In this document: piece by piece, positions 714 through 14,723 of the stretch
Layout: each line of letters opens with the position of its first letter
Position numbering within the stretch: position 1 is the first letter of the stretch
Assembly (NCBI GenBank): GCA_003694055.1
Contig: RFLC01000036.1
Location: 1-16,102 of the forward strand
DNA: 16,102 bases
DNA from: Candidatus Pacearchaeota archaeon
GTDB taxonomy: Archaea > Nanobdellota > Nanobdellia > Pacearchaeales > GW2011-AR1
Direction of reading: 5' to 3'
Made by a program: the position numbers and the translations under genes
Notes under the pieces: model-generated
What the model was told of the DNA's origin: nothing
Seen by the model: the letters and a program-made list of their open reading frames with translations, nothing else
Database searches by the model: none

Positions 714-1215
714 TTGATTGGAAAAGTTCAAGGGGTTTAGAAAGCTTGCCTAAATGTGACAAACTTGAAGCGCACTTAACCGGAATTCGCTTAAAATTGT
801 CAGACCAATGGAAAGCTTGTAGCGCTTGCGATGTCAATTTCTAAAGGTGCGGTTTGCAAGTTCGGACGCGCGTAAAGCTGAACTTAAGCCCACTTCGCGC
901 AGAAGTGCACAACTCAAGACGTTGAATTCCACGCTGCTGCTCCGCGCGCGACAAGAGCTCGCGCGCTCCCTGAATTCCATGTGCTGACCTTTCTGCTTCA
1001 TCACTTTAAGCGCTGGCTCAGGACTATCGTAGCAAGGATGCGAAAACCCAAAAAAGCTTGCGACTCTGCAAAATGAAATGTTGTTGTGTATATACATGCG
1101 TATATACCACCTAACGCTTGACTCTCTCCACCAGCTGCAACCGCTAGCGAAAGCAGCAAACCAAGCAAAGCCGCGCAAAGCACTTATGCCGAACAAACTT
1201 TCACAGCACTCTAAA
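714..1215. other. Gene-free convergent spacer carrying a GTATATAC dyad
   Basis: There are 502 bases between two convergent genes. Open frames here (for example on the minus strand 834-1196) have the Cys/Ser/Trp-rich composition of noise and no promoter, so I call no gene. The stretch has several GCGCGC tracts, two GAATTCCA copies about 50 bases apart, and one perfect GTATATAC dyad at 1088-1107. It could hold an unrecognised RNA gene. Confidence 0.6.
1088..1107. repeat. GTATATAC-N4-GTATATAC dyad, site 1
   Basis: Two identical self-complementary octamers GTATATAC are separated by ATGC. With three flanking bases on the left it forms 23 bp of strictly alternating purine and pyrimidine. It lies in a convergent spacer, 108 bases past the end of purA. 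Sister sites are at 5877, 12103, 14521 and (degenerate) 15249. Confidence 0.85.
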
Positions 1216-2709
1216 TCATTTCCCTCGGCACTCTCTCAAACAAACAACTTTATCGCGCTCTTTTCCGACGGAGATTGCGACAATAGGCGTGCGAACAAAA
1301 TCCGAGAGTTCTTTCACCGCAAGCTTCAAAGAATCTGGGAGCTCCTGTTCGCCATTCCCAAGCAAATCAATCCTCTCAAAACCCTCGTAAGTTTTGTAAA
1401 TTGGCCTCGCGCTTTCAAGAAATCTGGGAGAAGGGTCAAACCTCTGGATCGCTCTTTCCGTCGGAGTAGCATAAGCATACCCGACCCTGAACTCGCGCGC
1501 AAAAGCCAGCACATCTGTCTTTGTCAAAACTATCGCGTCAGGAGAGTTCAGCATCGCAGCGTAGCGCACTGCCAAAGCATCAGTCCAACCCACTCGGCGA
1601 GGTCTGCCTGTGGTTGCGCCGTACTCTGAACCCGCAAGCCGAATCCCGACACCCTGCTCAAACTCATCCTCAGAGTTTTTCAACTCGTTTATGCGCTCAT
1701 GAAACCTGTCGTAAATTACCTGCCCTCTTGGTCCTCGCTCAAACTCAACTCCAAACTCCCTCAACTCTCGTTCGCAGTTGTTCTCCGGGTTTGCGCACCA
1801 TTCGCGCGAGCGCGCGCCGCCCAACTCAGTCGGCATCGGCCCACCCCCAACTCGAGTTTGATACGGAAATTTCACAACTCCCAACACAAAATCGATTGCG
1901 CGCGCCGGCAATCCAACGCCAGAAGCAGCGCCATTTACCGACGGAGAGGATGAGGTAACATACGGATAAGTTCCAAACTCAACATCAAGAAGCAAGCCCT
2001 GCGCGCCCTCTATCAAAACCTTCTTCCCCCTCCTCAAAAACTCATGAACTTTCTCAATTGTCTCAGCAGCATACCTAGCCAACACCTCTCGCGAGCGCTC
2101 GGTTTTTTCAACAATATCAAAAGCAATTTCCCTTGCCTTTCTCTCTCCAACATCGCCGTAAACATCTGGGTAAAACCTAACTGCCTTGGCGACGCGCGCG
2201 TAAAGCGCATCCCTGTCCAAGAAGTCCTCCACCCTTACGCCTCTCCTCGCAACCTTGTCAGCGTAGCACGGCCCGATTCCCCTGCCTGTTGAGCCAATCC
2301 CCTTGTTTTTTTGCGAAGCGTTGTGCGCTCTGTCCCGCGCAATGTGATAAGGCATGATTACATTTGCCTTCGTGCTTACGAAAAGGTTGTCTGTTGAATA
2401 ACCTGCATTGCGAAGCGCGTTAATCTCGTCGACAAAATCATCTGGCGAGATAACGCAGCCGTTGCCAATTATGCTCACTTTCCCCTCGCTGTCGTGCACT
2501 ATGCTGCACGGCACTGAGTGCAAAACAATCTCGTTTCCATTGTGAACAATTGTGTGACCTGCGTTATTGCCTCCAGTCGCGCGCGCCACCACATCAAACC
2601 GCTCAGAAAGCATCTCAGTCAGCTTGCCCTTGCCAGTATCGCCGAACTGCAAATCAATCACTGCAGCAACCTTACCTTGCCCAACTAAATCAGCCAACGT
2701 CACCCGCAA
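1216..2709 (-). CDS. purA: Adenylosuccinate synthetase (PurA) with a large insertion
   Basis: It catalyses GTP-dependent condensation of IMP with aspartate, the first committed step to AMP. Signatures: P-loop-like GDTGKGK at residues 23-29 with the catalytic Asp24, GGNNAGHT at 46-53 with the general acid His52, IGSTGRGIGP (138-147), EGAQG (234-238), TYPYVTSS (247-254), EYGATTGRPRR (362-372) and LTKTDVL (395-401). At 497 residues it exceeds E. coli PurA (432). Most of the excess is about 50 extra residues between PTEL (293-296) and SEYGATTG (361-368), a charged segment with two cysteines. The glutamate normally after the catalytic Asp (GDEGKGK) is Thr25. The start is a TTG, supported by GAGGTG a few bases upstream; a GTG two codons later is the alternative. 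It is divergent from the DUF192 gene. Confidence 0.96.
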   Translation of the reverse strand: MRVTLADLVGQGKVAAVIDLQFGDTGKGKLTEMLSERFDVVARATGGNNAGHTIVHNGNEIVLHSVPCSIVHDSEGKVSIIGNGCVISPDDFVDEINALRNAGYSTDNLFVSTKANVIMPYHIARDRAHNASQKNKGIGSTGRGIGPCYADKVARRGVRVEDFLDRDALYARVAKAVRFYPDVYGDVGERKAREIAFDIVEKTERSREVLARYAAETIEKVHEFLRRGKKVLIEGAQGLLLDVEFGTYPYVTSSSPSVNGAASGVGLPARAIDFVLGVVKFPYQTRVGGGPMPTELGGARSREWCANPENNCERELREFGVEFERGPRGQVIYDRFHERINELKNSEDEFEQGVGIRLAGSEYGATTGRPRRVGWTDALAVRYAAMLNSPDAIVLTKTDVLAFAREFRVGYAYATPTERAIQRFDPSPRFLESARPIYKTYEGFERIDLLGNGEQELPDSLKLAVKELSDFVRTPIVAISVGKERDKVVCLRECRGK

Positions 2710-2753
2710 TTCCCACCTCTAAACTTTAAAAACTTTATTGAGCTATTGCGCAA
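2710..2753. promoter_or_regulatory. 44-bp divergent promoter between purA and the DUF192 gene
   Basis: A single A/T block, CTTTAAAAAC at 2724-2733, lies about 21-30 bases upstream of the plus-strand ATG (2754) and 15-24 bases upstream of the minus-strand TTG (2709). On the minus strand GAGGTG precedes purA at the proper distance, while the DUF192 gene has no ribosome binding site and looks leaderless. One box may serve both directions. Confidence 0.55.
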
Positions 2754-3089
2754 ATGCAATTCAAACTAAAAAAAGGAAGAACAACGCTTGCGGTTAAAGT
2801 CAAGCAGGCAGATGGCTTTGCCCGCTACATAGGTTTGATGTTTAAAAAACGCTCCTCAAACGCCTTGCTCTTCAAATTCCAAAAAGGCAGAGCGGCAATC
2901 CACTCGCTATTTGTTTTCTTCCCGTTTGTCGCAGTTTGGCTCGACGATAAAAACAATGTGAAGAAAGTTGAGGTTGTAAAGCCATTCAGACTTTGCGTGC
3001 GTGGGCCGCGAGAGGCGTGCGCGCTGATTGAGATACCGCTATCCAAACGCCACGAAAAAATTTTGCGCAAACTTGGAGTGCTTTTTTAA
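2754..3089 (+). CDS. DUF192 family protein
   Basis: The 111-residue product matches the DUF192 family pattern: a stretch ending in an aromatic/Arg residue and GLMF (27-30), then NALLFKF (36-42), a beta-rich middle IHSLFVFFPFVAVWLDD with the -LDD- that follows the family's central strand, and a C-terminal IEIP (92-95), close to the usual 'LEL(P/A)' ending. The biochemical role of DUF192 is not established. Unlike many bacterial members it has no signal peptide, so it would be cytoplasmic. The start ATG follows a TATA-like box by about 22 bases. It converges on the 3224-3763 gene across 134 bases containing no recognised feature. Confidence 0.85.
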   Translation: MQFKLKKGRTTLAVKVKQADGFARYIGLMFKKRSSNALLFKFQKGRAAIHSLFVFFPFVAVWLDDKNNVKKVEVVKPFRLCVRGPREACALIEIPLSKRHEKILRKLGVLF

Positions 3090-3223
3090 ACACTTTAAGA
3101 GAGGATTTTAACTTGCGTAGTTTTCCCTTGCCTTTTTAGTTGCGCGATAATCACATTTCTCGCTAGCCCAATTCATCCCCGAACTCGCAAAGCGTGCAAA
3201 GTTTATTGCGCAGAAATCTCTGC

Positions 3224-3763
3224 TCAAGGTTTCAACAGCACAACAGGGCTAGATGTTTCCTTTTCCAAGTTAACCACAACCTTGCCATCAACAATCTGCT
3301 TGCAAAAGAAACCAGCAGGAACAGCAAGGTGCTTAATTTGATAGTGCGCAAGCGAGCGCCCGCACGCAGCTGTCGGCGGATAAACGAAAACATTCGACTC
3401 TGCCGCCTCAACTCCAAACACTTCTGCAATCTTCTCATACCTCTCGCGCTCGTCGTCAACCAACCCCGCAGGAACATTGTTAGGATCAACTTTCCCAAAG
3501 CAAAGGTGCGTCAAGCTAGTTGAACGAATCCCGCTCGCAGGCAAGTCAAGGCCAACTTCCTCTCTCACCAATCCGCTCCTCCACGCGTCATCAACTTCTG
3601 ACTGCAGTCTGTCGTAAAGCAAACCAGTTTGCGCGCACTTGTTCACGCTGAGAAAAGTTTTAATCGCATAAATCGCAACTGCAACTAGGAAAATTATTAT
3701 GAGTATCGAGAAAATCATTCCGAAAGAAATTCCGACGCTGGATTGAGCCCGTTTATCGCGCAT
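3224..3763 (-). CDS. Prepilin-like single-span secreted/membrane protein
   Basis: The 179-residue product begins MRDKRAQSSVGISFGM followed directly by a hydrophobic segment of about 22 residues. This arrangement (short basic head, small residue, Gln/Ser stretch, then the membrane helix) resembles archaeal class III/type IV prepilin-like signals. The rest is an extracytoplasmic domain with conserved-looking aromatic/Pro stretches (VFVYPPTAACG) and four cysteines. An in-frame ATG seven codons earlier exists (3784), but a TTATTAAATG box is 17-26 bases upstream of 3763, and the signal organisation fits the later start. It is the last gene of a minus-strand group with the 38-residue ORF and the 3977-4318 gene. 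The function is unknown; it may be a minor pilin or surface protein processed by a prepilin peptidase such as that at 12358. Confidence 0.72.
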   Translation of the reverse strand: MRDKRAQSSVGISFGMIFSILIIIFLVAVAIYAIKTFLSVNKCAQTGLLYDRLQSEVDDAWRSGLVREEVGLDLPASGIRSTSLTHLCFGKVDPNNVPAGLVDDERERYEKIAEVFGVEAAESNVFVYPPTAACGRSLAHYQIKHLAVPAGFFCKQIVDGKVVVNLEKETSSPVVLLKP

Positions 3764-3858
3764 CCAATTACAACGAAAGCGCATTTAATAATCTTTCTCC
3801 CAGAAAAGCGCGAGATGAGCAAATTGCAACCCTTATCGCAAACCTGATAAAAAACAAC

Positions 3859-3975
3859 TCAAAACTTCTTTTTGCGCGTGCGCTGCGCCCCGCCACGCTT
3901 GTAAACCTTGTAAAGCCTCTTTGCTTTTTTATCCCTCTTTGTTTTGCGCCTCAACTTCGGATCCTCTCGAACCAT
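3859..3975 (-). CDS. Tiny basic protein, 38 residues, unknown
   Basis: This ORF starts one base after the TAG stop of the upstream prepilin-like gene (TAGGATG), which suggests translational coupling, and ends at TGA. It begins MVREDPKLRRKTKRDKK and ends RTRKKKF; 19 of 38 residues are Lys or Arg, with a Leu-Tyr-Lys-Val-Tyr-Lys patch and a Gly-Gly turn. The composition resembles small ribosome- or nucleic-acid-binding proteins, but it does not match L41e, L39e, L40e or S30e as I know them. The even basic residue pattern, codon start position and operon placement favour a real gene; its shortness keeps confidence moderate. Confidence 0.6.
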   Translation of the reverse strand: MVREDPKLRRKTKRDKKAKRLYKVYKRGGAQRTRKKKF

Positions 3976-3976
3976 C

Positions 3977-4318
3977 CTAGCCTTGCTTGGAATTATCGTT
4001 GCCAGCTTCGCACTTCACCTGCGCGCAATCAACTTTCTCACAGCTGAGACCCAAAAGTGGATCAGTGCACTTAATTTTCCTCTTGTCCTCCAGCTCGTTC
4101 TCCTTGCAGCAATAGAAAAACCTGTCTTGGTTTTGGCAGGCAAGGTTGCATGCTTGGATTATCGCCGAGCTAACGCTGCTTTCCTCAAGCGGCTTGGTCG
4201 TTTTCTTGAACCTGTCAAACCCTCCGCTGACAAAAATAATAATCGCAATAAGCAAGATAACGCCTAACAAAATTATCACAAGCGTTGATATAGCAAGCTC
4301 AAACCCTCTTTTTTCCAT
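3977..4318 (-). CDS. Cysteine-rich prepilin-like protein
   Basis: The 113-residue product starts MEKRGFELAISTLVIILLG and runs straight into a membrane segment (about 10-31). The pattern Lys-Arg-Gly, aromatic, Glu, then hydrophobic helix is typical of archaeal class III prepilin-like signals, with Glu7 as the +5 glutamate if cleavage follows Gly5 minus one position. The exposed part is short and has eight cysteines (57, 61, 70, 71, 84, 93, 98, 103), which suggests disulfides or metal binding outside the membrane. An A/T-rich box about 20-30 bases upstream and no ribosome binding site suggest a leaderless start. It heads a minus-strand group of three genes and is divergent from the HD-domain gene. 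The specific function is unknown. Confidence 0.75.
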   Translation of the reverse strand: MEKRGFELAISTLVIILLGVILLIAIIIFVSGGFDRFKKTTKPLEESSVSSAIIQACNLACQNQDRFFYCCKENELEDKRKIKCTDPLLGLSCEKVDCAQVKCEAGNDNSKQG

Positions 4319-4432
4319 TTAATCCCAATGTAACGCGAGTTTTTAATTTTTACTGATTTGCGCTTCGCACAGTCAAGCCAACAAGTTTTGAATAATCACA
4401 AAATTATTAAACCAAATCTGCAAAGCAATAGC

Positions 4433-4987
4433 ATGAATCGCGAACAAGCTTTTGAGTTGCTTCACGAATGGGTGAAGAGTGATAGTTTGCGGACGCATTG
4501 CAAGTCAGTTGCATATGCAATGGAAGAGTACGCGCGCGAGTTTTCTCTCGACGATAACGAGGTTGAAAAGTGGTTCGTGTGCGGCTTGCTTCACGACTTT
4601 GACTGGGAAAAATTCCCAAATATCGACGAGCATCCCCGGAAAGGTTGCGAGTTTTTGAAGGAGCGCGGTTGCGATGACGAGATAATTGAAGCAATCCTCG
4701 GGCACAACGAGCGCACAGGGGTTGAGAGAAAGACGAAGATGGCGAAGGCGTTGTTTGCAGTAGACGAGTTGTGCGGCTTGGTTGTTGCGCTTGCAAAGGT
4801 TCGCCCAGGAGCATTCGAAGGCATGACACCGAAGTCGGTGAGGAAAGCAATGAAAAAGAAGGACTTTGCGAGAAATGTGAACAGAGAGGACATCAAAAGA
4901 GGAATTGAAGAGCTAGGAGTTGATGAGAACGCTCATTTCGAGATTGTCATAAGAGCATTGCAACGAATGGAAAATGATAGAAGTTAG
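4433..4987 (+). CDS. HD-domain protein (probable metal-dependent phosphohydrolase)
   Basis: The 184-residue product has the HD superfamily arrangement: His22 (RTHCKSVAYAM), the paired His54-Asp55 in GLLHDFDWEKFP, His67 (DEHPRKG), His91 (LGHNERTG) and Asp111 (FAVDELCGL). These would coordinate one or two metals for phosphate ester hydrolysis. It resembles the small stand-alone HDIG-type hydrolases; the substrate cannot be read from the sequence. An in-frame ATG exists at 4358, but the A/T box around 4400-4411 sits about 22-33 bases before 4433 and the homologous part begins here, so 4433 is preferred. It overlaps the following GHMP kinase by 14 bases, indicating translational coupling and possibly a shared sugar- or nucleotide-phosphate pathway. 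Confidence 0.88.
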   Translation: MNREQAFELLHEWVKSDSLRTHCKSVAYAMEEYAREFSLDDNEVEKWFVCGLLHDFDWEKFPNIDEHPRKGCEFLKERGCDDEIIEAILGHNERTGVERKTKMAKALFAVDELCGLVVALAKVRPGAFEGMTPKSVRKAMKKKDFARNVNREDIKRGIEELGVDENAHFEIVIRALQRMENDRS

Positions 4988-5840
4988 CGTTCCTGTTAGG
5001 ATTGACATCTCTCCCGGATGGACAGATGCCGAGCCGTTTTGCTCCTCTTTCGGCGGCGCAGTGTTGAACGCAGCTATCTCGCTGCGCGCGAAAGTCGTGC
5101 TCGCGGGAAACAAGCTCATAAGCTCGCTTGAGAAAATCCCTTCCGAGTCAGGGCTTGGCACTTCAGGAGCTGTGCGCGCAGCCTACCTGGTTGCCGTCGC
5201 TCCATCGCTCGCGCGCAACAAAACTGAGTTAATCAAAAAGGTTCACGAGTTCGAGAACAAAATTCTAGAGGAGCATGCAGGACTGCAAGACCAAGCTGCA
5301 GCGATTTTCGGAGGAGTCAACTTCTGGCGTTTCTCCTCGAGAAAGATTGAAAGAAAGCCCCTTGCCAAAAGAGTTGCAGATGAGCTAGAGGGAAGGATTG
5401 CCTTGCTCTACACAGGAGAAAAACACCTATCCTACAACGTGCACAAAAAAGTTTACTCGAGCCGGAACTACGCGCGCGCTTTGCCAAAACTCAAAAAACT
5501 CAAGAAGATTTCGGAAAGAATGTTTAGCTCTATCAACAAGCAAAATCCTAATTGGGAAAGTTTTGCCGAGCTCATGAACCTCGCATGGAGCGTAGAGAAA
5601 ACTCTCTACAATGGAATTGAAACGCAACGAATGAGGAAATTGCGCGCGCGGCTTGGCGAGCTGTTTTTGTCGGCGCGCGCTACCGGGGCTGGCGGCGGCG
5701 GCTCAATGATTTTCTTTACAACAAAAGAAAAACTGCCAAAGCTTAAGCAAGCGCTAAAAAAAGAGAGCAAACAAATGCCAAACTCCTGCTTAATTAATTT
5801 CAGGTTTGACCACAAAGGCATGATTGTGAAGCGCGCTTAA
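4974..5840 (+). CDS. GHMP-family sugar kinase (heptose/fucose kinase-like)
   Basis: The 288-residue cytoplasmic kinase has motif 1 RIDISPGWTDAEP (9-21) then FGGAVLNAAI (26-35), motif 2 SGLGTSGA (59-66) for ATP phosphate binding, AGLQDQAAAIFGGVNF (102-117) with the probable catalytic Asp106, and motif 3 ATGAGGGGSMIFF (236-248). The GWTD and GxQDQ signatures point to the group containing D-glycero-D-manno-heptose 7-phosphate kinase (HddA) and fucokinase domains rather than homoserine or mevalonate kinase. It is shorter than a usual HddA (about 340): only about 23 residues separate the N-terminal strand from motif 2, so a loop or subdomain is reduced. It is coupled to the upstream HD hydrolase by a 14-base overlap. 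The substrate is inferred only to be a sugar or sugar phosphate. Confidence 0.88.
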   Translation: MIEVSVPVRIDISPGWTDAEPFCSSFGGAVLNAAISLRAKVVLAGNKLISSLEKIPSESGLGTSGAVRAAYLVAVAPSLARNKTELIKKVHEFENKILEEHAGLQDQAAAIFGGVNFWRFSSRKIERKPLAKRVADELEGRIALLYTGEKHLSYNVHKKVYSSRNYARALPKLKKLKKISERMFSSINKQNPNWESFAELMNLAWSVEKTLYNGIETQRMRKLRARLGELFLSARATGAGGGGSMIFFTTKEKLPKLKQALKKESKQMPNSCLINFRFDHKGMIVKRA

Positions 5841-6296
5841 ATCTCTAACCTCAGCAAAAAGTTTTTCGCACATTGTGTATATACGTGCGTATATACGCAA
5901 CCTTCATATCAAGCAAAAGTGCTAAGTGCAATGCTAGTTTTGCGCCCGTCCCGGCCAACGCTGTTCAAAGAATCGCGCAGATTGATCAGTCCTGCCAACT
6001 CTTGCGAAAAGTGCGCTCATCCGACGCTAGCGCCAACCCGCGCGTCCGATAAAGCACGCGATTTGGGTGCGCGCTTGTCCAGTGTTAACTCCGCGCCGCT
6101 CTCGACACCGCCGTCTCAATTAAAAACGCGCGCTTGCGCGCAATGAAACACTTCAACTTTCCATAGATAATCGTCGCGCAAGCATAACATAATATTCAAC
6201 GCAAACCTTGCTGCAGGTTCGGGTCAGATAAAAATCTTGAAAGAATTGAGCGTCCTGCAACCTCTCTCAAAACGAAGCAAACCAGCTCAGAGAATT
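5841..6296. other. Gene-free convergent spacer carrying a GTATATAC dyad
   Basis: There are 456 bases between the convergent GHMP kinase and CARDB genes. The dyad lies only 36 bases after the kinase stop. The remainder is patchily GC-rich (for example GCGCGC twice near 6130-6143) without a convincing ORF or recognisable RNA. A 75-codon open frame at 5919-6146 looks like noise. Confidence 0.6.
5877..5896. repeat. GTATATAC-N4-GTATATAC dyad, site 2
   Basis: Two GTATATAC octamers are separated by GTGC. Because the spacer's outer bases pair (G-C), the arms extend to 9 bp, and the flanks TTGT/GCAA allow up to a 13-bp hairpin counting one T-G wobble. The tract from 5874 to 5899 alternates purine and pyrimidine throughout. 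This is the most symmetrical copy in the window. Confidence 0.85.
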
Positions 6297-6818
6297 TCAA
6301 GAAACACTGAAATTGAAGATTGCAAAATTGTTCGCCTCGTTGCTCTCACTCACTGCGTTTCCCTTGTCAGCTTGCGCGACAAGCGCATACTCGCCCGGTT
6401 CTAGCACAAAGTCCAACGTTGCAGCCCACAAATTGCTCTGTCCTGCTTTCAATGGCGGAACATTTAAGTCAATTGTGTAGCTAGTTGCGCTACCTTCGAG
6501 ATACACGCGCGTTGTGGTAAACACATTCACTCCAGCATTCCCAACATTCTTTGTTCGCACATGCATAAAAACATGAGTCACGTTCGTGCTGTTTGTGCTG
6601 TTCCCGTCAAAGCTCGAGTTTGCGAATGCGAAAATCTCGCTGATTATCAAGTCTGGTCTGCCGGGGTTTGGAGAAAGCTCGCTAAAATTCCCCGCGCGCT
6701 CAAGAGCCGGCTTGCTGCTCACCAAAAAAGAGCCTACAACCAACAAAGAAAACACGCAAACAATAGCCCAAGCAACCCGCGTGCCGCGCCTCTCGAAAAC
6801 TAACTTTGGCAAGACCAT
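6297..6818 (-). CDS. Membrane-anchored CARDB-domain protein
   Basis: The 173-residue product has an N-terminal basic head and one membrane helix (about 15-34), then an exposed CARDB/APHP-type beta-sandwich: RPDLIISEI (54-62), a Thr/Asn-rich loop with N-glycosylation sequons (NST, NVT), KNVGNAGVN (90-98), PPLKAGQS (121-128), and the hallmark ending AQADKGNAVSESNEANN (148-164). CARDB domains are Ig-like adhesion or protein-interaction modules on archaeal surface proteins; here there is a single domain, so it may be a surface subunit. An upstream in-frame ATG would add 37 residues, but a TTTTATAAAA box at about 6838-6847 sits 20-29 bases before 6818, indicating a leaderless start at 6818. Confidence 0.85.
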   Translation of the reverse strand: MVLPKLVFERRGTRVAWAIVCVFSLLVVGSFLVSSKPALERAGNFSELSPNPGRPDLIISEIFAFANSSFDGNSTNSTNVTHVFMHVRTKNVGNAGVNVFTTTRVYLEGSATSYTIDLNVPPLKAGQSNLWAATLDFVLEPGEYALVAQADKGNAVSESNEANNFAIFNFSVS

Positions 6819-7261
6819 CCCAGAAACAAATTCAAGCGTTTTATAAAAATTATTGAAGTTTGAAATGAACGTTTTAAAATGAGCATTGCACACATAAACC
6901 CCTAAATGAGTTAGACGCGACCTTCCCAAGATTTAGTGCGAATCCTGTGTAAGCAGCATGCTTGCCCCTTGCCCTATTGAGTATTAATTTCTTCAACAAC
7001 TCCAGTGTTTGCTGATAGCAAATTTTTTGTATCGCGCGACGCTTAAAGCGCACCCCTATGTAATCAATCAGCAACGCGCGCTCGTTCAGCGGCGCGCGCG
7101 TTGCATTTGTGCACTGCTCAAAACGCAACATCAAAATGCTTTATTTTCAGAGTAGCCTAGAGCAATTCATCCCAACGCTAAAGCAAGGATTTCTTGCGCG
7201 CAGATTAACTGCCGAAACAACGTCGAGTTAATTTTTTAAACGTGGAAGCTGATGGGTTTGC
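6819..7261. other. Divergent spacer of 443 bp, no clear gene
   Basis: It contains the promoter of the CARDB gene at its left end and, at its right end, the 24-bp inverted-repeat element (7178-7201) and TATA-like box of the 7262 gene. In between, an 86-codon minus-strand frame (6874-7134) has no signal peptide, motif or promoter and I do not call it. GCGCGC tracts occur near 7075-7103. Confidence 0.5.
7178..7201 (+). promoter_or_regulatory. Inverted-repeat element upstream of membrane protein pair, copy 2
   Basis: This copy contains GCAAGGATTTCTTGC followed by GCGC and matches 81-104 at 23 of 24 positions. It ends 60 bases before the ATG at 7262, and a TTTTTTAAAC box lies between (about 7230-7239), exactly as at copy 1. 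A co-regulator site is the simplest reading. Confidence 0.5.
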
Positions 7262-7822
7262 ATGCGAAAAATTGAGAGCGTTTTGGAAAGGGAAAAGAAA
7301 GCGCAGCGCAATCGTTTGATTTTAAGCATAATCATGCTGGGCATTCTCGTACTAAGCACGCTTGGCTTCGGGTTAATATTTGCAGTGAACTACGGCGGAG
7401 GGTTTAACACAGGCAACAACCAACAGGCAAACTCGCACGGAGGAATGCTCAACTCAAACGGTGTGCTAAACCTTGGCTCGCAGCAATACACTCTTGCTTA
7501 CCCAAAAACGCAAGTTGGGGATGTTCAAGTTAGTTTGACAAAAACCATCTCCCAGTTATCCGGCCAGACGCTCTACATTGCCGCGGACAATCCTGCAGTC
7601 GTGAACGAACTAGCGCAGACTCTTGGAAGGTTCGCAGCGCGAGCGCAAGAAGCGTGCTACCAAAAGTGCGATAAAGACCTGCCGGAAAAAACCTGCGACG
7701 ACAACTTGATTGTGTGGAGAGATTCAGAGGAGAACAAAGTTTGGGAAGAGGGAAACTGCATATTTATCGAGGGAGACATGCGCGCAGTTGATGCTCTTAT
7801 ATACAAAATGCTAGGTCAATGA
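7262..7822 (+). CDS. Single-span membrane protein of unknown function, first of a pair
   Basis: The 186-residue product has a basic N-terminus (MRKIESVLEREKKAQRNR), one membrane helix (about 19-42), a Gly/Asn-rich linker (44-70) and a C-terminal globular part of about 110 residues with four cysteines (132, 136, 145, 166) that may form disulfides outside the cell. I recognise no family. The start is supported by a TATA-like box about 23-32 bases upstream. Its stop codon overlaps the next gene's start (ATGA), so the two proteins are probably made in fixed proportion and may form a complex. The upstream inverted repeat is shared with the gene at 168. Confidence 0.78.
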   Translation: MRKIESVLEREKKAQRNRLILSIIMLGILVLSTLGFGLIFAVNYGGGFNTGNNQQANSHGGMLNSNGVLNLGSQQYTLAYPKTQVGDVQVSLTKTISQLSGQTLYIAADNPAVVNELAQTLGRFAARAQEACYQKCDKDLPEKTCDDNLIVWRDSEENKVWEEGNCIFIEGDMRAVDALIYKMLGQ

Positions 7823-8631: not shown

Positions 8632-8685
8632 CGCGCACCCAACGGAAAGCGAAACGCAAGCGAGTTCAACCGACGAGAAAACCCA

Positions 8686-8758
8686 CGTCCCGGGGAGGAC
8701 TCGAACCTCCGACCCCATGGTTAACAGCCATGTGCTCTGCCAGCTGAGCTACCGGGAC
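8686..8758 (-). tRNA. tRNA-Asn (GUU)
   Basis: On the minus strand a complete cloverleaf can be drawn: acceptor GTCCCGG/CCGGGAC, D-stem GCTC/GAGC, anticodon stem CATGG/CCATG with loop CTGTTAA (anticodon GTT), five-base variable loop, T-stem GGAGG/CCTCC with loop TTCGAGT, discriminator G. It is 73 nt, has no intron and no encoded CCA (the next bases are TGG), so CCA is added afterwards. A TTTAAATAA box about 20-30 bases upstream (8778-8788) is the likely promoter. Confidence 0.97.
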
Positions 8759-9131
8759 ACACGACAAAATTTCGCTAGTTATTTAAAAGTTGTGCTGCGC
8801 AAATGCCAAAAAGCGTTTAATCTTGCTAACAAGTCCTGCTAGATATTTCGCGCGCTGGCGTGCTTTATTTGAGGCGCGGCGCGCTCAGCTCGCCGCGGCG
8901 CATCGTTCGCGAGAAGTGCTGGCAACTCGCGCGCGAATTTTGTCTGTGCTCGATGACGCAATGGTTAACCCACGCAAATCTCGCACTTCGTTTGGCGCGC
9001 GAGCGTCAAACCGCGTTTCCTGTTGGCGCTAAGAAAAAACGCGCTCAAAACGCGCGCATGGATAGGCAAACCATAAATTTATAAATGGTTGTTTTTAGAG
9101 TGGATTAACTAAACCAATGATAGGAGGTTGA
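8759..9131. other. Divergent spacer between tRNA-Asn and the ribosomal operon
   Basis: The 373 bases hold the tRNA promoter at the left and the rpl7ae promoter at the right. The middle (about 8840-9060) is GC-rich with repeated GCGCGC tracts and internal complementarity (for example GCGCGGCGCGC and CGCCGCGGCGC); no ORF has credible protein composition. A structured RNA gene is possible but not demonstrated. Confidence 0.5.
9077..9131 (+). promoter_or_regulatory. Promoter, leader and Shine-Dalgarno of the L7Ae-S28e-L24e operon
   Basis: A TATA-like AATTTATAAATG (9077-9088) is followed by a leader of perhaps 25 bases and a strong TAGGAGGT (9121-9128) three bases before the ATG at 9132. This contrasts with the leaderless look of many other genes here. 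The segment ATGATAGGAGGTTGA, flanked by CCA and TGG, resembles box C and box D halves of a kink-turn around the ribosome binding site, which could let L7Ae bind its own mRNA. Confidence 0.6.
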
Positions 9132-9434
9132 ATGGACTTCTACGAACTCGTCGAAAAGGCGCGAAAGACAGGAAAGATAGAGAAAGGAATCAACGAAGTG
9201 ACAAAGGCAATCGAGAGCGGCGCGGCTAAGCTCGTGGTTTACGCGAGCGACGTTGATCCGAAGGAAATTGTTGCGCACTTGGAACCGCTCTGCAAAGAGA
9301 AGGGGATTCCATGCAAGCAAGTTGACTCAAAAGAGCGGCTTGGTGTGGCTGCAGGAATACCTGTCAGGGCGTCAGCAGTGGCTATCGTCGAGCCCGGCGA
9401 AGCTGCGAAAGAAATTGACTCAATAAAAGCGTAA
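9132..9434 (+). CDS. rpl7ae: Ribosomal protein L7Ae (eL8 type)
   Basis: The 100-residue protein is the archaeal kink-turn-binding L7Ae, a large-subunit ribosomal protein also found in box C/D and H/ACA RNPs and RNase P. Diagnostic stretches are [27 protein letters not shown] (12-38), [21 protein letters not shown] (40-60) and [16 protein letters not shown] (70-85). It is shorter than the usual 115-125 residues, mainly because of a short N-terminus and C-terminus; the RNA-binding core appears whole. The start has a strong Shine-Dalgarno. It leads an operon with S28e (one base after the stop) and L24e, the conserved archaeal gene order. Confidence 0.97.
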
Positions 9435-9435
9435 A

Positions 9436-9720
9436 ATGTCAAAGAAGCAGCAGAGAGTTAGAGACAAAACATCAGAAGGCGGTCTAGCTGTGCGAACAGG
9501 CGAGCAAACTACTCACGCAGTTGTGGAAGAGCTCCTCGGCAGAACAGGCGCGCGCGGCGAACTCACGCAAGTAAAGGTCAGACTTCTCGAGGGCAAAGAC
9601 AAAGGAAAGGTCATGAGAAGGAACGTCAAAGGTCCTGTGCAACTCGGGGACATGCTAACCTTGCGAGAAACTGAGATTGAAGCTCGAAAGATTTCAACAG
9701 GAAGGAGGCGCATCTTATGA
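9436..9720 (+). CDS. rps28e: Ribosomal protein S28e (eS28) with N-terminal extension
   Basis: This is a small-subunit ribosomal protein near the mRNA exit channel. The core is clear: [52 protein letters not shown] matches the archaeal family from residue about 33 to 84. At 94 residues it is longer than the usual 65-75; about 25 extra basic/polar residues precede the core ([16 protein letters not shown]...) and about seven follow it. No in-frame ATG exists closer to the core, and the start lies one base after the L7Ae stop, so the extension is probably real. Its stop overlaps the L24e start. Confidence 0.95.
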
Positions 9721-9995
9721 CAAAGTGCAGTTTCTGCGGAAAAGAAGAGAGGCCGTTCCGCGGCGTGCATTTGATAAAAAACACAGGGGCAGTGGTCTAC
9801 TTCTGCTCCAGCAAGTGCAGAAGAAACGCTTTGAAATTAAAGAGGGACAAGAAAAAAGTGCGATGGACTGAAGCGTTCCACGAGAGAAGAGAGAAGTCGC
9901 GCGCGAGAGCACGGGCGGCGCGCGAAGCAAGCACTCAAGCTAACGAAGCAAAAAAAGAAACTAAAAAATCAAAATCCAAGAGTTCTAAAAAATAA
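9717..9995 (+). CDS. rpl24e: Ribosomal protein L24e (eL24)
   Basis: The protein is 92 residues with the zinc ribbon formed by Cys4, Cys7, Cys30 and Cys34 ([11 protein letters not shown]...YFCSSKC) followed by [20 protein letters not shown], the signature of archaeal L24e. The tail beyond residue about 55 is a Lys/Ala/Ser-rich extension absent from the shortest family members (about 55-65 residues). The start overlaps the S28e stop (ATGA). In many archaea ndk and infB follow; here the next 700 bases hold a dead insertion element instead. Confidence 0.95.
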
Positions 9996-9998
9996 CTT

Positions 9999-10013
9999 CG
10001 CTTTGTGAAAGCG
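9999..10013 (+). terminator. Small hairpin after L24e
   Basis: CGCTTT-GTG-AAAGCG forms a perfect 6-bp stem three bases after the L24e stop, with TTTTT about 18 bases further on (10031-10035). It may aid 3'-end formation of the ribosomal operon; the hairpin-to-T distance is not that of a classical terminator. Confidence 0.3.
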
Positions 10014-10123
10014 CCATGGTAGCGAGGCGATTTTTCAATCACTAAATCCTGATTAGAACCGTCGAGCGCAAGCCAACACAAAACTTATAAAAAGCAACGT
10101 CTTAAACTAGGATGAATAAACCT

Positions 10124-10143
10124 CTCCGCAGCTTGCTGCGGAG
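10124..10143. repeat. IS end hairpin at the transposase 3' side
   Basis: CTCCGCAGC-TT-GCTGCGGAG forms a perfect stem of 9 bp, four bases beyond the transposase stop. It matches the other end hairpin except for paired (compensatory) changes at two stem positions and the inverted loop. Confidence 0.75.
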
Positions 10144-10146
10144 CAT

Positions 10147-10516
10147 CTAAGTAAAATCTATTAACCTCAATTGCTCTCCTTTTCTTCCTTGTTTTTTAAT
10201 ATAACTTCTTATTATCTCTGCATTTTTTCTCAAATCAGGATGCTTCTCAAACAATTTGATAGCAGTTATACTTTTAACAATCTGGAATATTTTGATAGGG
10301 AATAACTTGGCGCAGAGCGTTCATTAGGTGCACATGGTCTTCATCAAACCCATACTCTCAAATTCAACATGATATCTCTCTAATGCCTTCACAAGTTCGC
10401 TTAATTGACTCCATATATTTATCCTCTAAAACAAATCTTTTCTATACAATGCAAAAAACAAAGTGATATTTTATCTTGAAGACTTTACGTGCTGACTTAC
10501 AAAGCTTGTCTTCCAT
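10147..10516 (-). pseudogene. tnpA: Broken IS200/IS605 TnpA (Y1 HUH transposase)
   Basis: Reading the minus strand and allowing frame changes, TnpA pieces appear in order: MEDKLCKSARKVFKIKYHFVFCIV then a stop where the family has Tyr; LEDKYMESIKRTCEGI; RYHVEFESMGF; DEDHVHLM, containing the HUH motif; SITAIKLFEKHPDLRKN; then AEIIRSYIKKQG...QLRLIDFT and a stop. At least three frameshifts and one in-frame stop are needed. The segment normally between the 'PDLRK' helix and the C-terminal tyrosine helix (the LWGGxxWSxGYF region) is missing, so an internal deletion is likely. The gene would be inactive. The order and motifs leave little doubt about the family. Confidence 0.85.
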
Positions 10517-10561
10517 AGAGCTAAAGAATTTTAGCTGTTTAATAGTTTTCTAAGGTTTTAT

Positions 10562-10581
10562 CCCCACAGCAAGCTGTGGGG
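10562..10581. repeat. IS end hairpin at the transposase 5' side
   Basis: CCCCACAGC-AA-GCTGTGGGG forms a perfect 9-bp stem about 45 bases upstream of the relic transposase start. Compared with the opposite end, two stem base pairs differ in a compensatory way (C-G for T-A and A-T for G-C), consistent with selection for the hairpin structure while the element was active. Confidence 0.75.
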
Positions 10582-10736
10582 TATTCGGATAAAATAAATC
10601 CAACATCGTGCCGCACTTCAACGCAATGCACATTTCCCGCAACCCCTGCAAAGCACAACCTTTCCAACCACTCATCAAATGCAATTAATCATTTCAATCA
10701 CAACAATCTATAAAAACGCGCTTGCGAATTTTGTTT

Positions 10737-11840
10737 ATGCGAAAGTCAAAACTTGAACGAATTGTTCGCAATGCGCTGAACACTCGAAGATATTCTATCC
10801 CTCTCGTCGCTGCAACTATTGCTGCCATGGGTTGCATTCCTGAAGAGAGCGCTGATGTTTCATCCGAAGGCAGGTATGTGGCTTTTACTGCCAATTACGA
10901 CGGAGAGTTTGACTGCGGCGAAGATGCGAAGCGTGTCGTGTGGTATGACTTAGAAACTGACCGCTTGAAAGTATTTGACGAAAACAGCCGCGTATGGTGG
11001 CTTGCTGTATCGCCGAGAGGCGTGCTGTACAATGTTGAAGATGAGCCTCTAGAAATAAAAGGTGAGCTCGATGGAAAAAGGATAGAGATACCGCGAGCAG
11101 GATATGCTGACATCGGCAATAGAGTATTGGTTTACACGCGTGTCCTCAACGACAACGACGGAGTGCTAGAAATTGTAAGAAACGGAAGAACGCTCCACAC
11201 TGACATTCACGGAACATTCGCAAAACTCTCTCCAAATGGAAAACGCATCGCTTACCTAACCTTCCCAAGAGATGATAAAAAAGTGCGATTGGAAGTGCTC
11301 GGAATTGACGGGAAAAACAGAAAGACAATCGCCAGCTTGAACGAGCTACACGAAGTAGCAAACATCCGATGGGCTGATGACGACCATCTGATTTTCGGAA
11401 TGACCACGCAGTACACCGGCGACGACGTGGAATTGTTTTGCGCAGATTGCACAAATGGAAAAATAGAGCAGTTAACAAATGACGACCTAGAAAATTTCTT
11501 TGGAGATAAGGTTGAAGGAGAGTACTACTTTATCGGTTATGAGAAAGGACAAGAAACCCGGTCGCAGAACAGAGAAATCTACGCAATGCGCAACTCAAAC
11601 GGAATTTGGGCAGTGAGAAAGCTTGGGCTAGAAGCAAGTTTCTTCAAGTTTTTTGGAGAGGACAAAAGAGGCATTGTTTGGGCTAACGACAACGGCGTGT
11701 TTGTGGGAGAGCTTGACGATTTAGAGAACAGGGTTAACTTGATAGACATCCTAAAAGCAAGGTTAGCTAGCCAACCAACGACACAGCCAGCTAGCCAACC
11801 AACGAGCCAGCCAGCTAACGAGAGCGAAACCTCAAGGTAA
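10737..11840 (+). CDS. Secreted beta-propeller-like (TolB/WD40-type) protein
   Basis: The 367-residue product has a basic head, a hydrophobic segment (about 20-32) and AAMGC with Cys33, a loose lipobox-like site, so it may be a lipoprotein or a cleaved secreted protein. The rest reads as repeated propeller blades of the TolB/PD40 type: DVSSEGRYVAFTANYDG, SRVWWLAVSPRGVLYNV, AKLSPNGKRIAYLTFP, ANIRWADDDHLIFGMT, EIYAMRNSNGIWAVRKL. The C-terminus (about 343-367) is a Pro/Thr/Ser/Gln linker made by a tandem 24-bp repeat. A TTG five codons upstream is in frame, but the CTATAAAAAC box about 20-29 bases before the ATG favours this leaderless start. It may bind surface polymers or proteins; the role is inferred. 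No GCGCGC occurs in the gene, unlike many neighbours. Confidence 0.8.
   Translation: MRKSKLERIVRNALNTRRYSIPLVAATIAAMGCIPEESADVSSEGRYVAFTANYDGEFDCGEDAKRVVWYDLETDRLKVFDENSRVWWLAVSPRGVLYNVEDEPLEIKGELDGKRIEIPRAGYADIGNRVLVYTRVLNDNDGVLEIVRNGRTLHTDIHGTFAKLSPNGKRIAYLTFPRDDKKVRLEVLGIDGKNRKTIASLNELHEVANIRWADDDHLIFGMTTQYTGDDVELFCADCTNGKIEQLTNDDLENFFGDKVEGEYYFIGYEKGQETRSQNREIYAMRNSNGIWAVRKLGLEASFFKFFGEDKRGIVWANDNGVFVGELDDLENRVNLIDILKARLASQPTTQPASQPTSQPANESETSR
11765..11812 (+). repeat. Tandem 24-bp repeat encoding a Pro/Ser/Gln/Thr tail
   Basis: Two adjacent 24-bp units beginning AGCTAGCCAACCAACGA differ at two positions and encode ASQPTTQP/ASQPTSQP. A third partial unit (AGCTAAC) follows. It expands the flexible tail of the beta-propeller protein and may vary in copy number by slippage. 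Confidence 0.85.
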
Positions 11841-12357
11841 GACCTATTTTCTAGCGCAACAATGTCCATTTTGCTCGCGCGGCAAGTTTTTCTCCCACAG
11901 CTTCGGCAGTTTGCTCGCGCGGTGCGTGAACTGAGAGGCGCGTGAGCTCCGAGGCGCGCGCGGCTTTTATTTTTTCACCAACTCCAAGCCGCAGCGTGTT
12001 GCAGCAGTCCATGGGGCAACTGAAAATTCTGTCGGCGCGCGCAGATTGCCGCTCCTCAAATAAAGCGCGCGAACGTGCTAACTGGATTTAAAAACTCAAG
12101 ATGTATATACAAATGTATATACGAAAACACTTCCATTTAAACGCGCGCGAAACGCCAGAGCGCGCGCGAACCAAAGACAACTTCGCGCGCCTGCCAACAC
12201 TCTCTGCTCAATTAAAAGCGCGTCATTCCAAATTCCAACTTCTTGCCCTCCGGGTGAAATCTGCGCGCGCTCATGCACAAACAACGGCAATGCAGAAACT
12301 CTCCACAAGCTCAAGCGCACTCGTTGAGCAGCGCAACTTGGCCGAGCTTCTAAACCA
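11841..12357. other. Gene-free convergent spacer carrying a GTATATAC dyad
   Basis: There are 517 bases between the convergent beta-propeller and prepilin peptidase genes. About seven GCGCGC tracts, a TATA-like GATTTAAAAAC (12086-12096) and a perfect dyad are seen. Frames on either strand look like noise. The TATA-like box just before the dyad hints at a transcript starting near it on the plus strand. Confidence 0.6.
12103..12122. repeat. GTATATAC-N4-GTATATAC dyad, site 3
   Basis: Two GTATATAC octamers are separated by AAAT. The outer spacer bases pair A-T here where sites 2 and 4 have G-C, so the 9-bp arms are kept by a covarying change. It lies near the centre of a convergent spacer, 262 bases from one gene and 235 from the other. 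Confidence 0.85.
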
Positions 12358-13230
12358 TTAACTAAAAATTGCCAGCGCATTAATCAAAAACCCTTGCCCG
12401 AAGAAATAAGCGTAAGCAAGCAAAAGTACAGCAACAAAAAACACCGGCGCAAATGGGACTCCGTTGATAACCCTCACTTTTTTCCCGCGTTTCACAAGAA
12501 GCTTAATTTCATCCTTGTTTAAGCCGTGCACAGAACGCCCAATAACTCTTCTCCCGATGCGGACTTCTTCGGCAAGCCAGTCCCCTTCAACAAGTTTACG
12601 AGGATGCAAACTCAAAACCATTGTCCTCTCCAAAGCCTTTGCATAAAGATAAAGCCAAGGAGAGAAAAGCAAGAGGGAAATGGCAAGGCTCAAAGCTCTT
12701 TGTTGAACAGACCAGCCCAAGAAGCTTGCTACAAAAAAGAACAGCAGAGCAAGCAGGCCGAAAATCCCAAGAGGAGTTGCATAAGGCCTCTTGCCCCACT
12801 CATCGCGCAAATTTTTCATAAAGCGTTTGCGCGAGTTCAAAGCAATAAAGGTAGAAAAAAACAGAGTGTAAAGGAACCCTATAAAGAGAAGCGTTACAAC
12901 AAACCCTGCTCCGTAAGTTAGCAATTCACCAACATTTTCTCCAGGCAGCATCGCGCCAAGAGCAATCAAGAGTTTCGCGTCGCCGCCGCCAAAAGTGCGG
13001 GTGTAATAAAGCGCGTTAGCGACAATTGTTGTGAAAATCACTCCTCCCACGCCGAGAAAAAAGAACTGCGCTTGAGAGTTTTGAACAGCATAAAACGCGC
13101 GATAAGCCAATAAAAAACCGAGCAAGGAAAAGTTAAGCCAGTTCTCAATTTCTTTGCGTTTGATGTCCTGCCACGCCGCTGCAAAGGTCGCAACAAGCGC
13201 CAGGGAAAAAATAAAATAATACTCCTCCAT
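12358..13230 (-). CDS. GxGD-type prepilin peptidase (A24 family)
   Basis: The 290-residue polytopic membrane protease cleaves the short signals of archaeal type IV pilin-like or archaellin precursors at the cytoplasmic face. The two catalytic aspartates are Asp22 in AAWQDIKRKEIENWL, and Asp84 in FGGGDAKLLIALGAMLP, the GxGD motif. Hydrophobic segments lie at about 5-20, 33-49, 57-76, 102-130, 152-172, 178-196 and 264-282; a soluble charged segment (about 200-260) precedes the last helix, longer than in minimal FlaK-type enzymes. I cannot tell archaellin-specific (FlaK) from general (EppA) specificity. No pilus motor or archaellin genes are near, but prepilin-like genes at 3224-4318 are plausible substrates. 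Divergent from the AI-2E gene with a 49-bp shared promoter. Confidence 0.92.
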   Translation of the reverse strand: MEEYYFIFSLALVATFAAAWQDIKRKEIENWLNFSLLGFLLAYRAFYAVQNSQAQFFFLGVGGVIFTTIVANALYYTRTFGGGDAKLLIALGAMLPGENVGELLTYGAGFVVTLLFIGFLYTLFFSTFIALNSRKRFMKNLRDEWGKRPYATPLGIFGLLALLFFFVASFLGWSVQQRALSLAISLLLFSPWLYLYAKALERTMVLSLHPRKLVEGDWLAEEVRIGRRVIGRSVHGLNKDEIKLLVKRGKKVRVINGVPFAPVFFVAVLLLAYAYFFGQGFLINALAIFS

Positions 13231-13279
13231 TCTCGAGTTAACCCGAAAAGTTTTTTATATCTTTCTCACATTAAAACCT
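13231..13279. promoter_or_regulatory. 49-bp divergent promoter
   Basis: A single A/T block TTTTTTATAT (13249-13258) lies about 22-31 bases before the plus-strand ATG (13280) and about 19-28 bases before the minus-strand ATG (13230). No ribosome binding site is obvious on either side, so both genes look leaderless and may share this box. Confidence 0.55.
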
Positions 13280-14284
13280 ATGCGCAAACTAAAAGAAACT
13301 TTCTTCTCGCGTCGCGGGCTGTACTTGCGGGAGATTAAAAAATACAGCATCTTGCTAACTTTCTTTTTTCTCCTAGTAGTTTCGTTTTACATTGTCAAAA
13401 GTTACCTAACAGCTCTCCTCTCTGCATTCATCTTTGCCTACCTCGTTTTCCCAATCCACAAACGCATGCGCAAAACCCTCGGCAACTCGTTTTCTGCACT
13501 TATCTCAGTCGCGCTAGTTTTAGGAGTGATATTCATCCCTTCTCTGCTAGTTTTCGGCGGCATTGCCCAGCAAATCATCTCCTACTTTTCAACAAACGGC
13601 TCGCAACTCCTCGAAACACTGGAGTCATCAAAACTCGTCGGAAAACTCGGAATCCAACTCAACTCCCTCGACAACATCAGCACTTACCTTATCTCTCTTT
13701 TCTCATCTGCGCTAAAGTTCGTTCCTTCGATGCTCGTGTTCCTGTTAATAACAATTTTCTCGATGTATTACTTCATTCTTGACTGGGACAAGCTCTCTGC
13801 AAAGCTGCGAACTTACTTGCCATTCGTGAACAAAGAGAAAGTTGCGCGGGACATTTCCGAAGTCACGAGAAGCATTGTTTACGGCACATTTTTAGTTGCA
13901 GTGATAGAGTTCGTGATAGCTGCTCTCGGCTTCTACCTCCTCGGCGTGAATTTCTTCCTCTTACTCGCTGCGCTCGTTTTCTTGCTCGCGTTTGTCCCGC
14001 TAGGCCCTGCAGTAGTGTGGGTGCCAGCTGTCGCGCTCTACCTTTTGCGAGCAGACTACTTCACTGCAATCGGAGTGCTAGTTCTTGGGCTTGTGCTGAG
14101 CTTTGGGATTGATACAATCGCAAGGGCAAAGCTCGTCGGCAACAAAACAAACATAAACCCTGTTGTCATGCTCTTGGGAATTTTCGGCGGCGTGCCATTG
14201 TTCGGGTTGTTCGGATTTGTCATCGGTCCGCTAATCCTTGCCTACACGTTGAAAATAATGGAAGAGGTTTTCTCACCTGTCTAA
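13280..14284 (+). CDS. AI-2E family transporter
   Basis: The 334-residue polytopic membrane protein belongs to the AI-2E/PerM family. It shows paired N-terminal helices (about 24-60), a helix at about 71-95, a variable extracytoplasmic region with QQIISYFSTNGSQLLETLES, then helices from about 150 onward, the DWDKL...RTYLP loop typical of the family, FVPLGPAVVWVPAVALYLL, and the conserved C-terminal block GGVPLFGLFGFVIGPLILA (303-321). Members export diverse small molecules or ions (some are Na+/H+ antiporters); the substrate is not predictable here, and a role in quorum sensing is not implied. The start is supported by the TTTTTTATAT box. It converges with the mazG-like gene across a spacer bearing a GTATATAC dyad. 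Confidence 0.92.
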   Translation: MRKLKETFFSRRGLYLREIKKYSILLTFFFLLVVSFYIVKSYLTALLSAFIFAYLVFPIHKRMRKTLGNSFSALISVALVLGVIFIPSLLVFGGIAQQIISYFSTNGSQLLETLESSKLVGKLGIQLNSLDNISTYLISLFSSALKFVPSMLVFLLITIFSMYYFILDWDKLSAKLRTYLPFVNKEKVARDISEVTRSIVYGTFLVAVIEFVIAALGFYLLGVNFFLLLAALVFLLAFVPLGPAVVWVPAVALYLLRADYFTAIGVLVLGLVLSFGIDTIARAKLVGNKTNINPVVMLLGIFGGVPLFGLFGFVIGPLILAYTLKIMEEVFSPV

Positions 14285-14723
14285 TAACAATCCGTTAATG
14301 AAAAAGCTCTCTTTCTAGATTGTCGCGCATCTCCCTGTGCCGCGCTTTTTCTCGAGTTCGGGCGCGTTTGTTGCGTTCGCGCGCGGCGCGCGCGGCGCTG
14401 TCAACTAGGGCGTGCGGAAATTTGCGAAAGGAGGTCGCATTTCTTGCGCGCGATTTTCGTCGCGCTGCCACGCCGTGCCGCGCTAACAAGCTCTGCACGC
14501 CAAAAACGCAAGTTAAAATTGTATATACGAACGTATATACGCAAACCTGGCTCTTGAAAGACGCGCGAGCGCCGTGCGCGCGCTCACCTGTTGGACTCGA
14601 AGTAAACCTCGCAGCCCGCGCAAGCAAGAAAAGCGCGCATCAAGCTGTTTCCTCACTTAACGCGCACCACTATCCCATCCAACGCACGCATCGCACAAGC
14701 AAGCACAAAACGCAAAACCCAGT
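14285..14723. other. Gene-free convergent spacer carrying a GTATATAC dyad
   Basis: There are 439 bases between the convergent AI-2E and MazG-like genes. It is very GC-rich in parts (14370-14400 has overlapping GCGCGC tracts). AAAGGAGGT near 14428-14436 looks like a ribosome binding site but no start codon follows, so it is probably chance or part of an RNA. No ORF is convincing. Confidence 0.6.
14521..14540. repeat. GTATATAC-N4-GTATATAC dyad, site 4
   Basis: Two GTATATAC octamers are separated by GAAC, whose outer G and C extend each arm to 9 bp. The flank GCAAAC on the right resembles the GCAACC flank of site 2. It lies in a convergent spacer. Confidence 0.85.

Follow-up and report, generated by a model that had tools for sequence, protein, structure and literature searches.

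Introduction

The SegB sites of the Sulfolobales occur 46–49 times genome-wide, consist of two palindromic boxes (TCTAGA-S-TCTAGA) and are linked to segregation; an excerpt of the same report places 83.7% of those of S. solfataricus inside genes (PMC12284271). The archaeal chromosomal protein Sso7c4 belongs to the SpoVT-AbrB superfamily and bends and bridges DNA, according to a partial text of PMC5222340. In bacteria, an excerpt on the VapBC system of S. flexneri (PMC3384007) describes DNA-binding domains of AbrB type and places putative VapB sites in neighbouring major grooves. How chromosomes are organised and segregated in small archaea without ParB is an open question. Here, we analyse a 16,102-nucleotide stretch of a Candidatus Pacearchaeota genome (contig RFLC01000036.1; hereafter the window), which carries several copies of an intergenic dyad, GTATATAC-N4-GTATATAC. 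An earlier reading of the window from its letters alone (the original prediction) had proposed that the dyad marks convergent gene ends and is a site for a dimeric or tetrameric protein, a bidirectional terminator or insulator, or an RNA hairpin.

No description of this motif, or of a similar dispersed dyad, was found among the matches listed in the open-licence PubMed Central (PMC) literature. Among these, papers containing the octamer GTATATAC mostly concern primers, judging by their topics. The octamers in the papers on FaRel2 and Rv0023 are, going by the excerpts of these papers, not the same site.

Results

A nearly invariant site across the genome

The four exact dyads of the original prediction are present in the window (Table 1), and 200 dinucleotide shuffles of the window gave no match. 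The whole-genome scan that it had proposed was run on the 994,947 bp of the assembly (270 contigs, 79.65% complete) and returned 73 matches with up to two mismatches: 70 exact, two with one mismatch and one with two. A reversed control pattern returned none across the whole genome. The dyad is a real, nearly invariant, genome-wide DNA site. The genome encodes the ribosomal proteins L7Ae, S28e and L24e and is therefore archaeal; its small size would fit a DPANN-type lineage.

The window and the fetched contigs (C1-20, C121-140 and C161-200) provide a readable sample of 42 contigs and 311,995 bp, outside which lie 39 fetched contigs, all shorter than 3 kb (72,988 bases), that were read as N. The sample holds 34 exact dyads and no copy with a single mismatch; the degenerate site of the window is the only copy with two, and two others have three mismatches, namely a decayed second box (L025:3477) and an exact site shifted in register by 12 bp (L094:894). 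Base composition predicts 0.0001 exact pairs in these 312 kb, against the 34 observed. The octamer occurs 74 times in the sample, 68 copies being paired at exactly 12 bp, and the six unpaired copies compare with 6.3 expected by chance. Site density is one per 13.6 kb in the whole genome and one per 9.2 kb in the readable sample, the latter probably too high because contigs were chosen in blocks after the hit list was known. Two matches, L006:51 and L007:1501, come from opposite ends of contig C23 and probably represent a single physical site, so the total of 73 may be 72, and the 44 exact matches analysed below may be 43.

A tail of near-miss copies is usual for protein-binding sites, and as such the 70/2/1 mismatch spectrum is itself odd on general knowledge. 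The comparison made here is only with the table of repetitive extragenic palindromes (REPs) in PMC2817692.

Structure of the dyad

Context and flanks were analysed for 44 exact matches only, of which the 42 readable contigs supplied 34 and the short loci L006-L015 the other 10. Their consensus is Y-GTATATAC-RNNY-GTATATAC-R, in which each box is palindromic by itself (YGTATATACR) and the boxes are paired at exactly 12 bp. The flanks are T-rich on the left and A-rich on the right, with no fixed head, and a symmetric base bias, G being depleted on the right and C on the left, extends to 8 bp outside the dyad and then ends. The four-base centres are well mixed, with 23 different centres among the 44 sites. 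Information amounts to approximately 37.6 bits per site, calculated from exact matches only, compared to the 14.7 bits needed to locate 73 sites. From these sequence features, a binding site for two protein dimers is well supported.

The covariation of the inner bases, which had been taken to extend the arms to 9+2+9 bp, did not survive the larger sample. The inner purine and pyrimidine vary nearly independently (AC 14, GC 11, AT 11, GT 5, AA 1, GA 1, TC 1) and, because the commonest combination, A..C, does not pair, the pattern is not RNA covariation. Four 60-nt pieces of the window fold with an 8-bp stem at -8.5 to -13.4 kcal/mol (z of -1.3 to -2.7).

Placement relative to genes

Genes were called with our own simple open reading frame (ORF) caller and not taken from a standard annotation. 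None of the 44 sites lies inside a called gene, in a readable sample with a coding fraction of 0.80. The flanking genes are convergent for 12 sites, tandem for 13 and divergent for nine, and 10 sites adjoin a contig end. Within the window, the claim of one dyad per long convergent spacer stands (gaps of 502, 456, 517 and 439 bp with our caller), while a short convergent gap (3089/3224, 134 bp) has no dyad. The restriction does not extend to the genome: among 29 sites in closed gaps of the readable contigs, 10 are convergent (6.0 expected, not significant), 11 tandem (16.4 expected) and eight divergent (6.6 expected). A marker of convergent genes is therefore rejected: the original prediction had named a lack of enrichment in convergent spacers as refuting, and no significant enrichment was found.

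None of 27 start codons lies within 90 bp of a site, against 26–31% in the null, and none of 5000 simulations was as low. Near gene ends the shortfall is not significant (19% versus 27%). The smallest gap hosting a site is 239 bp, and the 34 sites of the sample are more central in their gaps than by chance (mean distance to the nearest gene of 130 bp versus 98).

The box pair at AbrB-type antitoxin genes

The collection scans gave 80 loci (635,220 bp), and the ORFs around their dyads were searched for AbrB-type genes. Such genes are present in eight of the 80 loci, all at 0–49 bp from the dyad, and none were found elsewhere in the 635,220 bp, a silence that is somewhat biased because the AbrB model was trained on matches near dyads. 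Tested against Pfam MazE, five of the eight genes score above the cut-off of 24.7, two fall just under it (24.4 and 23.6) and one, L204, has no match. By eye, a PIN- or MazF-like ORF follows the AbrB-type gene in all seven cases checked. On a viral contig (L259), three boxes at 12-bp steps stand 25 bp before a MazE-type antitoxin gene, which is followed by a MazF-like ORF. The hosts of these dyads are unrelated bacteria and phages. Since the starts of mazE-/vapB-type genes bear this box pair in several unrelated bacteria, the SpoVT/AbrB fold is the most likely one for the binder, and an AbrB-fold binder in the archaeon is moderately supported by this likeness.

The unmatched gene, L204:909-1325 (minus strand), lies on a Taylorbacteria contig. 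Its single ORF runs from a MazE-like N-terminus into a CsaA-type tRNA-binding domain, and the dyad stands where the ORF begins.

Distribution in other genomes

Of nine same-genus genomes, six have no match and three have one match each, with at most one mismatch. The original prediction had looked to orthologous spacers in close relatives; the single matches are few, and these relatives are too distant for such a comparison. Adenylosuccinate synthase, found in five of the nine, is only 40–51% identical in aligned pieces, so the genus is deep, and in the relative G004 (median best-hit identity of 51%) no informative pair of orthologous spacers was obtained. Among 371 genomes of the phylum, exact matches occur only in the archaeon's own genome (70) and in one other, G002 (one).

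In G004, the best candidate for an analogous dyad belongs to a larger repeat and is not of the same kind. That genome carries a dispersed element (L104-L138) that ends in GGCTCTGTTGAAAA and encloses a TGATTTGC dyad. It is probably a miniature inverted-repeat transposable element (MITE), whose ends we take to resemble the IS6-like family.

The scan of collection contigs, with a pattern that fixed the inner R..Y bases and in a collection where records very near the archaeon's own genome may be missing, returned 60 stretches. Fifteen come from one metagenome-assembled genome (MAG) of Patescibacteria, FW300_bin.57 (SCTJ01), the one other genome that showed many copies, whose genes are bacterial by eye (EF-Tu and EF-G, for example). 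Its boxes form three-box arrays with a 12-bp period, often with a partial fourth box; eight of the 15 arrays lie in tandem gaps on the minus strand, four in tandem gaps on the plus strand, three in convergent gaps and none in divergent gaps. In the phylum of a Nomurabacteria MAG (G406), four of 379 genomes have one to three exact matches. The dyads of Nomurabacteria and Doudnabacteria (L185, L182 and L208) have an AGGGGT stretch nearby, and L185 and L182 adjoin gene 3' ends.

Flanking sequence

The surrounding sequence, which had been described as unshared, is indeed so for most flanks. The exceptions are seven flanks with a common GC-rich segment of ~50 bp, beginning 2–4 bp from the dyad, and the spacer of window site 12103, which is 89% identical to contig C6 (L029) over 149 bp, dyad included. 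At weaker scores the segment is also found without a dyad, and no decayed dyad was seen beside such lone copies. A larger element around every dyad was not found; beyond 8 bp only the seven flanks have anything in common. Spacer L077 is 85% identical to the site-bearing L094 over 237 bp, minus one 12-bp unit. Repeats link two pairs of site-bearing spacers, 18 mixed pairs and 43 pairs of site-free spacers, and site-bearing spacers are no richer in shared repeats than the others. These comparisons began from exact dyads, and the unchanged boxes in them are partly the result of that selection; constraint is indicated independently by the near lack, genome-wide, of copies with one to three mismatches. 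We read the pattern as selection on the two-box unit with occasional loss, the main rival being recent copying.

GC-rich, hairpin-like segments are also dispersed in other spacers of the genome (for example, L057:3363-3431 and window 11933-11970). The words GCGCGC/CGCGCG occur 7.5 times per kb between genes and 2.4 times per kb in genes.

A dyad near a MinD-type ATPase gene

Contig C23 (L269, 7,553 bp) has a 99-bp exact terminal repeat, and 99 bp is also the overlap of contigs L044 and L094. The recurring length suggests the assembler's k, in which case C23 may close into a 7.45-kb circle and be a small circular element; a chromosomal repeat is the alternative. It encodes a NUDIX protein, an acyltransferase and a MinD/ParA-type ATPase that passes the archaeal MinD cut-off. 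The dyad lies 124 bp past the ATPase gene, which is suggestive of partition and no more.

Features of the window

Table 1. Dyads and adjoining segments in the window.
Feature	Position	Strand	Observation
Dyad 1, GTATATAC-ATGC-GTATATAC	1088..1107	.	Exact match; biased footprint ~1080-1115; convergent gap
Dyad 2, centre GTGC	5877..5896	.	Exact match; footprint ~5869-5904; convergent gap
Dyad 3, centre AAAT	12103..12122	.	Exact match; footprint ~12095-12130; convergent gap; common ~50-bp segment in right flank
GC-rich segment adjoining dyad 3 (same as at dyad 4)	12125..12190	+	Flank comparison
Dyad 4, centre GAAC	14521..14540	.	Exact match; footprint ~14513-14548; convergent gap; L057:208 can be aligned with both flanks
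GC-rich segment adjoining dyad 4, one of 7 flanks with the segment	14542..14615	+	Flank comparison
Degenerate site, apparently dead	15249..15268	.	Left box intact, right box with 2 changes; divergent gap

By eye, GCAAGGATTTCTTGCGCGC is common to window positions 86-104 and 7183-7201, ~60–65 bp before two plus-strand genes (168 and 7262). The spacer at 9996-10721 contains the remnant of a Y1 (IS200/IS605-type) transposase with three stops (10310-10483, minus strand), and hairpin-like sequences at 10124-10143 and ~10562-10581, the latter found by eye, may be the ends of this remnant.

Discussion

We propose that two dimers of a single protein recognise the dyad as double-stranded DNA. They would occupy neighbouring major grooves at a distance of 12 bp, with one palindromic box per dimer. 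The binder would most likely have the swapped-hairpin SpoVT/AbrB fold, as in the MazE/VapB antitoxins. The archaeal site would not be a promoter operator, being repeated about once per 9–14 kb between genes, at least ~90 bp from start codons, and conserved in an all-or-none manner. Instead, the bound protein pairs may give the chromosome fixed points by which it is organised or segregated, the role that SegB, ParB and Noc sites have elsewhere. We assign this reading as a whole a probability of about 0.4. The data themselves establish the sequence, spacing, symmetry, copy number and placement of the site and its connection with AbrB-type genes in bacteria; we infer the fold of the binder in this archaeon, a cooperative tetramer and the architectural role, and by analogy with these systems chromosome organisation is the best inference for the role. 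The site for a dimeric or tetrameric protein is what we retain from the original prediction, on the palindromic boxes, the 12-bp pairing, the symmetric 8-bp bias and the MazE/VapB link; its convergent marker, bidirectional terminator and RNA hairpin we set aside.

Several observations weigh against this proposal, and the absent AbrB-type gene is its main weakness. PF04014 and TIGR01439 (the latter even at an E-value of 5) are unmatched in the archaeon's own genome (G000), whereas PF04014 is matched in all nine relatives; no search was aimed at Sso7c4. The readable part of the genome contains no convincing protein of AbrB type or toxin–antitoxin (TA) toxin type, and the AbrB genes of the relatives have no clear 12-bp box pair upstream. 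This absence is not proof, since a short AbrB-type gene could be missed in an incomplete assembly whose fetched contigs under 3 kb were read as N. RHH_1 likewise has no match in this genome, while seven of the 10 genus genomes have one, and ParB_N has none in any of the 10, this genome included. The MazE6 of M. tuberculosis has a ribbon-helix-helix domain, so another fold can bind TATAC-type operators (PMC9477884, excerpt). In three of the eight AbrB-type loci (L198, L204 and L216) the distance to the dyad is 0 because the longest ORF runs over the dyad, which makes the true gene start uncertain there. Furthermore, when the Patescibacteria MAG is set aside, 65 collection loci remain; no AbrB-type neighbour was detected at 57 of them, and many of these may be chance matches. 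Finally, no macrodomain is visible: sites are not clustered among the contigs of the readable sample, in an assembly too fragmented to judge.

AbrB is a global regulator, and in bacteria the dyad stands at mazE/vapB-type gene starts, where an operator is expected, which raises the possibility that the archaeal dyad, too, serves a global transcription regulator as its operator, many genes being controlled from a distance by the bound protein. The avoidance of start codons makes this rather unlikely, as do the 10 closed-gap sites in convergent gaps, which have no promoter of called genes, and the unrelated neighbours named in the window (PurA, a GHMP kinase, a CARDB protein, a prepilin peptidase, an AI-2E transporter and MazG). 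A dispersed mobile palindrome, REP-like or MITE-like and spread by copying, would account for an intergenic, high-copy sequence nearly confined to one genome and for the spacers that were duplicated with the dyad, at the seven flanks and C6, and the unchanged dyads in related spacers owe something to the choice of exact matches. Some REP families also consist mostly of exact copies (for example, 29/38/40 and 259/329/355), but many other rows of the table have far fewer exact than near-exact copies (4/52/126, for example), against 70/2/1 here (PMC2817692, excerpt). Copying is unlikely on the remaining evidence: most flanks share nothing, the spacers with sites are no richer in repeats, the centres are well mixed, and lone copies of the common segment have no decayed dyad beside them. 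Moreover, the sole Y1_Tnp match in the genome is the window remnant, although no search was aimed at RAYT as such, and the shared interior with terminal inverted repeats that defines a MITE was not found.

The all-or-none sequence and the excess of information would suit a drive, and hence a tag for DNA uptake, recombination or immunity that is kept exact by biased gain of perfect copies; a prepilin peptidase gene lies in the window. However, known uptake sequences are denser and also genic, and with one site per 9–14 kb and none in genes such a tag is improbable here. Very improbable is an RNA hairpin, bidirectional terminator or insulator at gene ends, to which the folding of the 8-bp stem and the confinement of all 15 Patescibacteria arrays to tandem or convergent gaps would point. 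Eight of the 29 closed-gap sites are divergent, and the inner pairs are independent with A..C the commonest. A terminator scan of the window returned no dyad among its results, an Rfam search of the window returned only a tRNA, and the GC-rich stem, U-run and gene 3' end of an intrinsic terminator were not found.

Returning to a two-dimer site with an AbrB-fold binder, its origin can be sketched only tentatively, in a scenario that we consider possible but doubtful. A TA-type operator may have escaped from its operon and come to serve as an address code for the whole genome, such that an antitoxin-related AbrB-fold protein on ~70 twin-box sites organises or partitions the chromosome, and possibly a small circle too, of a DPANN-like archaeon; a Patescibacterium would use three-box arrays in a similar manner, independently or by transfer. 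If true, this would be a second career for antitoxin DNA-binding domains. A site repeated ~70 times, together with a fold predicted from unrelated operons, turns the question of chromosome organisation in such archaea into a pull-down experiment.

Comparison with known systems indicates which parts of the dyad are familiar. REPs and bacterial interspersed mosaic elements (BIMEs) are likewise short, palindromic, extragenic and present in many copies, as are the 73 matches here; however, REPs have a GT(A/G)G head and a GC-rich stem, whereas the dyad has an AT-rich core and lacks such a head (PMC2817692, excerpt). The mazEF and vapBC operators, bound by SpoVT/AbrB-fold antitoxins, have the identical GTATATAC-N4-GTATATAC pair at AbrB-type genes, with boxes ~12 bp apart as here. 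Their site is at the antitoxin gene, in its promoter, whereas the ~70 archaeal sites are away from start codons and no cognate antitoxin gene was found. The arrays of FW300_bin.57 share the box, the 12-bp period and the many copies per genome, and differ in having three boxes, a longer conserved stretch and no divergent placement among 15. Sso7c4 of Sulfolobus resembles the proposed binder in being archaeal, chromosomal and of the AbrB fold, and differs in that the excerpt of PMC5222340 mentions no long exact target. SegB sites have another motif and spacing and are mostly genic, going by the excerpt of PMC12284271, in contrast to the intergenic dyads; the two nevertheless have in common many two-palindrome sites scattered over a genome, here across 995 kb.

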